NCBI GenBank assembly: GCA_938005475.1
Contig: CALLNY010000040.1
Coordinates: forward strand, 1 to 48,170
From: an uncultured Bacteroidia bacterium
GTDB lineage: Bacteria; Bacteroidota; Bacteroidia; J057; CALLMJ01
Length of the DNA: 48,170 bases
Direction: 5' to 3'
Shown: one piece after another, positions 33,063-36,864 of the stretch
Position numbering within the stretch: the first letter of the stretch is position 1
Layout: each line of letters starts with the position of its first letter
Position numbers and translations under genes: made by a program
The notes under the pieces: model-generated
The model's database searches: none
Told to the model about the DNA's origin: nothing
What the model saw: only the letters and a program-made list of their open reading frames with translations

Positions 33063-33938
33063 TTAAAGCAAAAGTCCTATACTTATTCCTGAGGTAAAAC
33101 TTATAGGTATAGACCAATTTTCGGAGATAGTATGACTATGAAAATTACTGGGAATGTTGTTATCAAAATAAGAATTTGCAGGGTATATAAAATCTGTTTT
33201 ACGATTTGCGAAGCCATATCCGCCTCCAACATATATATCAAGTAAAATTATATCCGCAATAAGCCATTGTTTCCCAATAGTTAAATTGATGGCTCCACTC
33301 CAATTCCTAAATTTTGCTACCTGAACAATAGGAACGTAATTTAATGTATCATAAATAAAAATTTGTTCTTTGTTTGTGAAGTAAGAAAAAGAAATTTGGG
33401 GTTTAAAATACGCACCCGCTAACGGATGCACTAATCTTGTCCCTTTGTTATAAGTTAATTGTTGAAACATCATTTTATTACCAACCGTAACAAAGGCTCC
33501 TTGCTTTTCATCATTAAAAACATCATATTCTTTAGGTTTTAAACCGACACCAATAACTCCTACTTTCGCATCAAAAATGATTTTAGGGGCTATCCATTGT
33601 TGATAACCCATCGCAAAATGCCTTGCAATCGGTCCAAATGGAGTAATCATAATAGCCTTGCGTTTATGCGAATTCGAAGATTCCGATATGGCTAATAGGT
33701 CTTTTTCGAATTCTATTTTTTCCCCATTTTCTAATTGAATACTCACTACATCTTGCTTAGATATTACATAAATAGGTCCTTCTAAATCGTTGTAATTTCT
33801 GTATTTAATTTCATCAGAACCGATTTCAATAATTTTTACTTCTAACTTGGATTTATTCGTTTTTTGCAAAATATCTTGCCCCCAGACCGTAGAGGTTAAT
33901 AAAACCCCAAAAATTACTTTTAAAACCAACCTTTTCAT
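33063..33938 (-). CDS. Secreted/outer-membrane protein of unknown function
   Basis: The 291-residue protein starts with a signal peptide (MKRLVLKVIFGVLLTSTVWG-QD). Residues 25-75 form a small beta-domain common at the N-terminus of Bacteroidota envelope proteins (LEVKIIEIGSDEIKYRNY ... IYVISKQDVVSIQLENG). The remaining part is strand-rich with Tyr and Phe (QLTYNKGTRLVHPLAGAYF, YVGGGYGFANRKTDFIYP) and ends in ISIGLLL, consistent with a beta-barrel. No specific family recognised. It is convergent with hutH with only 15 bases between stops. Confidence 0.75.
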   Translation of the reverse strand: MKRLVLKVIFGVLLTSTVWGQDILQKTNKSKLEVKIIEIGSDEIKYRNYNDLEGPIYVISKQDVVSIQLENGEKIEFEKDLLAISESSNSHKRKAIMITPFGPIARHFAMGYQQWIAPKIIFDAKVGVIGVGLKPKEYDVFNDEKQGAFVTVGNKMMFQQLTYNKGTRLVHPLAGAYFKPQISFSYFTNKEQIFIYDTLNYVPIVQVAKFRNWSGAINLTIGKQWLIADIILLDIYVGGGYGFANRKTDFIYPANSYFDNNIPSNFHSHTISENWSIPISFTSGISIGLLL

Positions 33939-33983: not shown

Positions 33984-34011
33984 TTTGCCAAGTCAAAAAA
34001 GGCTATATTTG
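33984..34011 (+). promoter_or_regulatory. Promoter with -7 box next to the first gene of the tiny-gene cluster
   Basis: TTTG (33984-33987) and TATATTTG (34004-34011) are spaced by 16 bases, shorter than usual, with a perfect -7 box. The ATG at 34016 is 4 bases after the box, so the transcript should be leaderless or nearly so. Confidence 0.5.
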
Positions 34012-34015
34012 CAGT

Positions 34016-34222
34016 ATGAGTGATTGGTCTGAATACTGGAAAAATCGCAATTTGATTGAAGATATTGCTGTTCAAAAAAATAGACAAAAAATGTCTTTGC
34101 AAGATTGGGAGGTATTTTTTTATATACTCAAACATTATGCTTTTCTTGCCCAAAAAGTACGTAATTGGTATGATTTCCTAATGTGGACTTTAATAGCTTT
34201 TGTTTTTTTAGTACTTTATTGA
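34016..34222 (+). CDS. Small protein with C-terminal membrane helix, unknown
   Basis: This is a 68-residue protein that I do not recognise. Residues 1-50 are charged and helical with several aromatics (SDWSEYWKNRNLIEDIA, LQDWEVFFYILKHYAFL). Residues about 52-67 form a hydrophobic helix (FLMWTLIAFVFLVLY), suggesting a tail-anchored inner-membrane protein. It is first in a cluster of four very small genes: its TGA overlaps the next ATG by one base (TGATG). Close coupling and its own -7 box suggest it is real. Confidence 0.65.
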   Translation: MSDWSEYWKNRNLIEDIAVQKNRQKMSLQDWEVFFYILKHYAFLAQKVRNWYDFLMWTLIAFVFLVLY

Positions 34223-34548
34223 TGAGCTGGCTTATTTTATCAATTAGTGTCATTCTATTGATTTTTGTAATCCTTCAAAGACAAAAAATTCATGTTTTTA
34301 CAGCCCATAAAAATATCCAAACTTTCCTATTACCTTTTATCTACTATCTCAAAAATGATGTATGGGAAGATACGCTACTACATCTTCAGATTGACATGAA
34401 CCCCAATTTCACAGCAGGTATTTTTAAAAAAGAAACTAATACTTATCATTTTGAATGGATAAAGGGGAAAACTCGCCTCATGGATGGTAGTGAAATTCAA
34501 TTTAGAATTAAAGATATACGAAAAAAATGGAATGTAACCAAACGTTGA
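34222..34548 (+). CDS. Small membrane-anchored protein, unknown
   Basis: From the ATG coupled to the preceding stop the product is 108 residues. An N-terminal membrane helix (WLILSISVILLIFVILQ) is followed by a soluble domain with beta-strand character (LLHLQIDMNPNFTAGIF, YHFEWIKGKTRLMDG, IQFRIKDIRKKW). An upstream in-frame start (34183) would overlap the preceding gene by 40 bases and is less likely. No family recognised. It overlaps the next gene by 22 bases. Confidence 0.65.
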   Translation: MSWLILSISVILLIFVILQRQKIHVFTAHKNIQTFLLPFIYYLKNDVWEDTLLHLQIDMNPNFTAGIFKKETNTYHFEWIKGKTRLMDGSEIQFRIKDIRKKWNVTKR

Positions 34549-34775
34549 ATATCAGAAAACTAAAAACCAAAACCAAATATAAAATTGTAACGCGTTATAC
34601 GGTTATGTTATCCTGGGATAAACGCTGTTATAACAAAGAATTGGGAGAGATTCCTCCTAAATTCAAATTAAAAGAAGAACAAAAAAGTAAATCTCCTTAT
34701 ACGATTTTAGACCCTGTCGCTTGTTCCGCAATTTATCAAAATGCTTACAAAATCTTATCTAAAAAAGTAGCTTAA
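34527..34775 (+). CDS. Small basic protein, unknown
   Basis: This 82-residue protein is rich in Lys and Arg (IRKLKTKTKYKIVTRYTV, FKLKEEQKSKSPYT) and ends with a short helix (CSAIYQNAYKILSKKVA). There is no membrane segment or signal peptide. It overlaps the preceding gene by 22 bases and is followed 3 bases later by the split zinc-finger gene, so the cluster is translated in tight order. No family recognised; the basic charge would suit RNA or nucleoprotein binding, which is speculative. Confidence 0.6.
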   Translation: MECNQTLNIRKLKTKTKYKIVTRYTVMLSWDKRCYNKELGEIPPKFKLKEEQKSKSPYTILDPVACSAIYQNAYKILSKKVA

Positions 34776-34777
34776 TT

Positions 34778-35100
34778 ATGGCAAGATGTTATATCAAAAG
34801 AGGGATTTGGGTAACCAAACAATGTGAGAACGCCGCTCTTACAAACTGCTCCGTTTGTAACAAACCCACTTGCACTGAACATTTATCAGTAGTCTTAACA
34901 AAAAATTTATTTGTGTGAATTGTTTAAAACCTTACATGTCAGTTGATTTAGTAGAAGATTTCAAAGAAGGTGACATAGAAAATTTTGTTTATTACATGGC
35001 TAGTCTAAAAGCACGTTTTGATTCCCTAAAAGAAAAATCTGGTTTTGACCCTATTATGATGATAACGATACCTCCGCAAACCTATACGATAGTGGAATGA
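34778..35100 (+). pseudogene. Treble-clef-like zinc-finger protein split by a -1 frameshift
   Basis: An ATG at 34778 opens 46 codons with two halves of a zinc site, CSVCNKPTCTEH, then hits TGA at 34916-34918. The adjacent frame, read continuously from the A-run near 34900 to the TGA at 35100, begins K-K-F-I-C-V-N-C-L-K-P-Y, supplying the missing CxxC. Joined at the run of six As (codons ACA-AAA-AAT, 34898-34906) the product is about 107 residues, with CxxC-x4-CxxH-x12-CxxC and then a helical C-terminus (VEDFKEGDIENFVYYM). A AAA AAT fits the X XXY YYZ slip pattern, so programmed -1 frameshifting or transcriptional slippage is possible; a real indel or assembly error is the plain alternative. 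The second frame also has a GTG at 34915 overlapping the TGA by four bases, so it could be made as a separate 61-residue protein. Confidence 0.65.
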
Positions 35101-35128: not shown

Positions 35129-36364
35129 ATGAAAGTGCATTTACCTAATTCAGAACAAAATGAATTAAGCTACGAAGAACTTATCAAGCGTTCAGAACCT
35201 AATAAAACTCAACTTTCTGAACTTCACACAAAGGAAATGGTCTTAAACATTGGACCCCAGCATCCCTCTACGCATGGTGTTTTACGATTAGAAGTTGTTA
35301 CAGATGGAGAGTTAGTTCTAAACGTTATACCGCATTTAGGATACTTACATCGTTGCTTTGAAAAACACGCAGAATCTTTGAACTACCAACAAATTATACC
35401 CTACGTGGATAGAATGGATTATCTGTCTGCTATGAACAATGAATTTGCTTATGCTATAGCCGTTGAAAAAATGCTAGGATTAACGGGACAGCTACCTAAA
35501 AGAATTGAGTACATTCGGGTCTTAGTTGCAGAGCTTAATAGGATAGCCTCTCACCTCGTTGCTATTGGTACTTACGCAATGGATATCGGGGCTATAACTC
35601 CTTTTTTATGGTGTTTCCGAGACCGTGAACACATCCTCAATTTATTAGAATGGGCTTGCGGTGCAAGAATGCTATACAATTACATTTGGATTGGGGGGCT
35701 TTTCTATGACCTACCTGTGAATTTTGAAGAACGTTGTTTAGAGTTCTGCCAATATTTCTATCCCAAAATTATTGAATTAGAACGACTTATCAGTGAAAAT
35801 CCTATTTTTATCTCCCGAACGGTAGGTATAGGTATCTTGCCTTTACCAACTGCTATTGATTTCGGTGTAACAGGTCCTATGTTACGTGCATCAGGCTTAA
35901 AATACGATATCCGTAAAGTAGATGGTTATTCTGTTTATCCTGAATTAGATTTTGAAGTCCCCTACGCCCATAAAGATGAGATTGGTAAAATTGGAGATTG
36001 CTGGATGCGTTATAAAATACGGGTGTTAGAAATGTACGAATCTTTAAAAATAGTAGAACAATGTGCTCAAAAGTTATTGAAAGACTATCCCCGAACTCCT
36101 GATTTTGACCCACGAAAATTTTGCCCCAAAAAAATACGCCCAAAAGCACAAGCCCTCTACGCTCGTGCAGAAAATCCAAGAGGAGAACTGGGTTTCTTTA
36201 TAGTTGCAGATGGAAAAAACGATATACCATATCGTTGTAAAGTCAGAGCGCCCAGCTTTTGTAATTTGTCTGTACTTCCTGAATTATGTAAAGGTATTTT
36301 ATTAGCTGATTTGGTAGCTATTTTAGGTTCAATTGATATTGTTTTAGGAGAAGTGGACAGATAA
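35129..36364 (+). CDS. nuoD: NADH-quinone oxidoreductase subunit D
   Basis: NuoD is the 49-kDa subunit of respiratory complex I, part of the peripheral arm next to the quinone site. The 411-residue protein has the family signatures: [73 protein letters not shown], and the C-terminal [17 protein letters not shown] ... [11 protein letters not shown]. An N-terminal extension of about 35 residues precedes the conserved part. Unlike the classic nuoA-N order, no nuoC or nuoE is adjacent; the preceding genes are the tiny unknown ones and nuoJ lies tail to tail on the other strand. Confidence 0.96.
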
Positions 36365-36366
36365 AA

Positions 36367-36864
36367 CTAATTATACTTTTTGGCAATCATCAAAGCACCT
36401 ATTAAAGCTACTAATAGTATGACAGAAATCATCTCAAAGGGGTATACGTACTGGGTCATCAATTGAAGACCGATTTTTTCTACTTTACCATACTCAAAAG
36501 TTTCTTTTGCAGAGCCTATCGCAGAAAAATCTTTCATAGCCACTAACATTTCCGCTAAAAAAGCTAATCCTAATAAAAAGGCAAGCCCTTTTTTAGCATC
36601 GAAAGCAGGCTCTAAGGACTTCTCGGAACCTAAATTGAGAAGCATCACCACAAACAAAAATAATACCATAATAGCCCCCGCATAAACAATAATTTGTATA
36701 ACCGCTATAAATTCCGCATTCAAAGTGAGATATAAACCTCCAATACAGAAAAAGTTTACCACCAACAAAAGTACTGAATACATAGGATTCCTGTTAGTGA
36801 TAACAGCTAATGCAGTCGCAATAGATAAAACAGCTAATACCCAAAATAGTACAGTCTCAACCAC
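36367..36864 (-). CDS. nuoJ: NADH-quinone oxidoreductase subunit J
   Basis: NuoJ is a membrane subunit of complex I with five transmembrane helices. This 165-residue protein shows them with the diagnostic loop LTLNAEFIAVIQIIVYAGA-IMVLFLFVVMLLN; the conserved 'YAGAIMVLFLFVVM' is the pi-bulge helix TMH3. It starts at a GTG. It is alone: no nuoI, nuoK or other nuo gene flanks it. Its stop codon is two bases from that of nuoD, which is on the opposite strand. A TTTG-N20-TTACTTTG promoter-like pair lies about 24 bases upstream. Confidence 0.93.
   Translation of the reverse strand: MVETVLFWVLAVLSIATALAVITNRNPMYSVLLLVVNFFCIGGLYLTLNAEFIAVIQIIVYAGAIMVLFLFVVMLLNLGSEKSLEPAFDAKKGLAFLLGLAFLAEMLVAMKDFSAIGSAKETFEYGKVEKIGLQLMTQYVYPFEMISVILLVALIGALMIAKKYN

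Follow-up and report, generated by a model that had tools for sequence, protein, structure and literature searches.

Described Systems and Family Searches

Gene clusters of GT4 enzymes (PF00534, PF13692, PF13439) for glycolipid or polysaccharide synthesis are the described systems among which the relatives of the present locus are found. This locus, at positions 34016 to 35100 of the window (the whole 48,170-nucleotide stretch of DNA analysed here), carries what are very probably the remains of a membrane-protein gene and a zinc-finger gene, whose relatives are flanked by two GT4 genes and adjoin a further, probable glycosyltransferase gene; however, neither of the two proteins matches a Pfam or NCBIfam family. 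The LemA family (PF04011) is also encountered in this context, with lemA adjoining the first GT4 gene in genomes G305, G506 and G519, but it is a mere neighbour in these relatives and lies outside the window remnant. The zinc-finger protein shares with the B-box, AN1 and cross-brace zinc fingers the arrangement C-x2-C-x4-C-x2-H followed by C-x2-C, whereas its acidic (Y/F)DS tail is foreign to those families and no solved structure matches it. Membership in the B-box or AN1 families was not supported, as the matches to the ANCHR-like B-box and to zf-AN1 (Pfam) reached 14.3–15.4 bits, far under the cut-offs of 27–27.9. Finally, the locus resembles ordinary bacterial pseudogenes fragmented into short ORFs, in that it is derived, carries frameshifts and a nonsense codon, has lost a stop but retained its promoter, and has functionally linked genes that were lost as well, but differs from them in that its parent family is undescribed and in that its residues are still well conserved, so that the inactivation would be recent.

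Scans of Pfam, NCBIfam, PHROGs and PADLOC with both the fragments and the intact proteins returned nothing above cut-off, in agreement with the initial annotation, which had recognised no family for the products. Sequence-profile searches of the PDB gave no credible match, and a literature search found no paper on the cluster described below. Single-sequence AlphaFold2 models were confident for the N-terminal helices alone of the membrane protein and unusable for the zinc finger (pLDDT 38); these models were too poor to back any fold or docking idea.

Two Probably Decayed Genes in the Window

The initial annotation had read the locus as four coupled small genes forming a maintained operon. A search with the second of these frames found an ortholog in G001, an uncultured Bacteroidia MAG (record CALLMJ010000100.1) and the sole other species of the same genus in the comparison. 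In G001, the first three frames of the window correspond to a single 254-aa two-helix membrane protein, and the fourth frame region to a single 132-aa Cys/His zinc-finger protein. The lesions that separate the two states were placed by DNA alignment to G001 and by frame-by-frame tblastn.

The remnant of the membrane-protein gene occupies positions 34016–34775 of the forward strand, on which all features of the locus lie, and is divided into frames 1 (34016–34222, 68 aa), 2 (34222–34548, 108 aa) and 3 (34527–34775, 82 aa). The loss of one base at a T run at 34203–34209, which reads TGTATTTTTTAG in G001, shifted the frame and created the apparent TGATG overlap. Downstream, both the alignment and tblastn placed an in-frame TGA at 34546–34548, where G001 has TCA, and the alignment revealed the loss of another base near 34562, within 34560–34567 (CTAAAAACC vs TACAAAACC in G001). 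Both overlaps, that at TGATG and that of 22 bases, were correctly observed in the initial annotation, but they are two of the lesion seams rather than signs of an operon.

The remnant of the zinc-finger gene follows at 34778–35096, after a gap of two bases and not of three as first reported. The lengths given for the first three frames stood, but the fourth, described as a frame of about 107 residues, consists of two frames, one of 46 codons ending in TGA (34778–34918) and another running to 35100, which connects to the former only through a −1 shift. In this remnant, the alignment placed the loss of one base at 34886–34887 (CATTTATCAG vs CATTTATCCATCAG in G001). At 35049–35052, residues 93–118 of the G001 protein (26 residues) are gone, with 78 nt lost and 2 nt left, a net out-of-frame deletion of 76 bases. 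The conserved C-terminal tail that follows (35052–35093), in the third frame, is identical to that of G001 at 14/14 residues, despite differences at almost all synonymous sites. The stop codon was also lost (GGA at 35094–35096 vs TAA in G001), and the frame continues into the start of nuoD. The eight Cys/His positions all remain readable, as does the YDS tail, but they are spread over three frames. Relative to G001, the 1.08 kb thus contain six lesions: three deletions of one base each, an in-frame TGA, an out-of-frame deletion of 76 bases net and a lost stop.

The intact membrane protein has a helix at its N-terminus, a membrane hairpin of two helices and a basic domain, the latter with an invariant motif, KR-x-x-SGK-x-K-x-K-x-K, common to the membrane proteins compared. 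The zinc-finger protein presents the spacing C-x11-C-x7-C-x2-C-x4-C-x2-H-...-C-x2-C, and its acidic tail terminates in (Y/F)DS, which forms the C-terminal end of every zinc-finger protein found and also of a fusion protein in G317.

A −7 promoter element, TATATTTG, is found at 34004–34011, four bases before the first ATG, as had been noted initially, and G001 carries TAAATTTG at the same distance from its ATG. The consensus and spacing followed those published for Bacteroidota (PMC6847099), in which the G of the Flavobacterium −7 element is placed at −5. By this spacing, the transcript is predicted to start at the A of the ATG, that is, to be leaderless.

Regarding the flanking genes, nuoD (35129–36364) is intact, 88% identical to its G001 counterpart, and not part of the system. 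The suggested link between the locus and the respiratory genes did not hold, as in G001 nuoD is found on a different contig (C95) and in a different context, beside a proton-pumping nuo subunit and away from the pair; the adjacency in the window is a lineage-specific rearrangement without functional meaning. On the other side, an intact 291-aa gene on the reverse strand, encoding a putative outer-membrane protein (33063–33938), is the upstream neighbour in G001 as well, and was used as a control. The genes for Complex I were also seen to be dispersed in this genus (window positions 35129–36864 and loci L001, L002 and L031): nuoD adjoins a nuoJ-like gene on the opposite strand, and other contigs of the window genome carry a second NuoD-like protein (42% identity) as well as two matches to NuoC. 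Near the intact pair, G001 encodes a 1228-aa tetratricopeptide-repeat protein (L015:4185-7871), whose C-terminal region looks CHAT-peptidase-like by eye.

Selection and Timing of the Decay

Translations of the ancestral frames are 65–68% identical to G001. The pN/pS ratios, calculated pairwise from the window and G001 sequences and therefore pooling both branches, were 0.317 (0.24–0.40) for the membrane protein and 0.327 (0.22–0.47) for the zinc finger, in comparison with 0.340 for the intact upstream neighbour and 0.126 for nuoD. Ratios of about 0.32 indicate that selection acted on the ancestral frames through most of the period after the divergence from G001; since the residues of the broken frames are as conserved as those of the intact neighbour, the inactivation would be recent, even though the two genes have accumulated six lesions. 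The initial annotation had proposed a ratio near 1 as a sign of a non-functional system. The ratio is indeed not near 1, but the selection detected acted on two ancestral frames, before their inactivation, and not on four small genes. Strong purifying selection was found for the intact pair between G305 and G506 (dN/dS of 0.089 and 0.060).

The Intact Pair and Its Glycosyltransferase Cluster

Profile searches in Bacteroidia revealed clear relatives in G009, G317, G305, G506 and G519, and none in most of the genomes searched; the distribution of the pair is patchy. The initial annotation had suggested a search of related genomes for the same gene order; the relatives carry two longer genes, and the separate frames are not conserved. 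As these longer single genes are present in G009, G305, G506 and G519 as well as in G001, the split state is derived. The partnership proposed between the membrane and zinc-finger proteins fared better, as the intact genes adjoin in several Bacteroidia. Weaker profile matches in G012, G031, G142, G226, G313 and G411 were not counted as members; the G012 locus was inspected and presented no zinc-finger partner.

The gene order in G305, G506 and G519 is lemA, GT4a, membrane protein, zinc finger, GT4b, lipoprotein and GGGxGHL transferase, and that of G009 is GT4a, membrane protein, zinc finger, GT4b and GGGxGHL transferase. The GT4 and LemA assignments were made by Pfam, whereas the GGGxGHL protein, with no Pfam match, is considered a putative transferase from its context and glycine-rich N-terminus. 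In G317, both GT4 genes, the lipoprotein and the transferase keep the order seen in G305, G506 and G519, but the membrane protein (L013:4048-5097) itself bears the acidic FDS tail and the zinc-finger core is absent. Adjacency to the glycosyltransferases is thus conserved in the distant genomes G009, G305, G506 and G519, and in G317 with a fused or truncated form. In G001, the pair is not beside glycosyltransferases and the genes are dispersed, so that there the link rests on shared presence. The lipoprotein of the cluster is also conserved (DKRKYYSNG...KLRDAxSKLLWKVK) and belongs to no Pfam family (L035:3757-4368, L045:7746-8363, L013:2347-2976).

Loss of Partner Genes

The genes for the membrane protein, zinc finger, GT4b and GGGxGHL transferase are all intact in G001 (4/4); its GT4b is 34% identical to that of G519 over the full length, and its GGGxGHL gene lies beside rpsP (L051:1231-2049). 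In the window genome, the GGGxGHL gene is found at the syntenic site beside rpsP (L047:4090-4678, contig C31, reverse strand) but is broken: it reads MKTLIYCLGGGLGHLP*TF, in which the asterisk is a TGA, followed by a frameshift, and its end is lost. The search for a GT4b ortholog in the same genome recovered only short, generic GT4 matches, and this fourth member of the set appears to be missing. Counting the broken pair of the window and the GGGxGHL gene broken elsewhere, no fewer than three members of this one set are defective, at two sites that are not linked. The best reading of these results is that an undescribed glycosyltransferase-associated system was lost in the window lineage.

Alternative Explanations

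We are confident, short of certainty, that the locus is what is left of a two-gene unit inactivated recently: the ortholog of a close relative is intact while the window copy is lesioned, each of the 36 remaining ORFs of the window is intact, and the remnant is the only stretch longer than 300 bases that is left uncovered by ORFs of at least 100 aa, which cover ~94% of the window.

Spurious pseudogenes are a known problem of draft assemblies (PMC11017572), and both genes could be intact in the living organism, the lesions being assembly or sequencing errors; part of them fall at homopolymers, and the conserved frames appear to be under selection. However, six lesions accumulated in 1.08 kb and none was recognisable in ~44 kb of other coding sequence of the window, a clustering that a uniform error rate hardly explains. 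Moreover, among the lesions are a base substitution that creates TGA, a net deletion of 76 bases and the loss of a stop codon, and errors would not selectively strike another gene of the same cluster, which is broken on a different contig. Such an artefact is improbable.

It could also be supposed that ribosomes cross the seams by programmed −1 frameshifting or slippage and still produce full-length proteins, as every seam requires a −1 shift and three of the four present an in-frame slippery heptamer (T_TTT_TTA, A_AAA_AAA and A_AAA_AAT). However, when single bases were deleted at random from intact genes of the AT-rich window, the result was such a heptamer in 26–31% of cases, by which three heptamers in four seams would arise by chance with p ~0.06–0.09 (binomial estimate), and the fourth seam, 5′ of the 14/14-conserved tail, has no heptamer. 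No relative uses a shift at these sites, as they read one frame, and the functionally linked transferase elsewhere in the genome is broken by a nonsense codon. Recoding was considered slightly less plausible still than an assembly artefact, and both are disfavoured as explanations of the window locus.

Four genuine small genes in a translationally coupled operon, the least probable reading by a small distance, would account for the tight overlaps of open frames, the promoter and the conservation of the frames at the protein level, but not for homologs that are two longer genes in G001, G009, G305, G506 and G519, nor for the opening dozen residues of ORF3, which are out of frame with the homolog, nor for a fourth frame that is split, with its best-conserved tail in a third frame.

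Proposed Function and Significance

With the decay of a two-gene unit as the preferred reading, the pair most likely no longer works in the window organism, and its function may be considered from the intact relatives. The hairpin protein would tether a complex to the inner membrane, and its basic domain would be the docking site for the acidic tail of the zinc finger, as suggested by the G317 fusion and by the opposite charges of these regions. This docking could recruit or regulate both GT4 enzymes together with the GGGxGHL transferase, and the glycosyltransferases of the complex would build a glycolipid or polysaccharide. The likeliest role of the intact pair would thus be that of an inner-membrane adaptor for glycosyltransferases, with the acidic tail on the basic domain, although we rate this mechanism as less likely than not. 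It is conceivable, at similar odds, that the KRxxSGKxKxKxK hairpin protein and the (Y/F)DS zinc finger constitute an undescribed membrane scaffold that assembles two GT4 enzymes and the GGGxGHL transferase, patchily distributed in Bacteroidia and lost as a unit.

These findings illustrate that short frames which overlap and keep conserved residues may mark the frameshift seams of a decaying gene and not a compact operon, and that the joint breakage or absence of genes at sites that are not linked flags them as partners. In this case, the joint decay points to an undescribed membrane/zinc-finger pair acting with specific glycosyltransferases in Bacteroidia.
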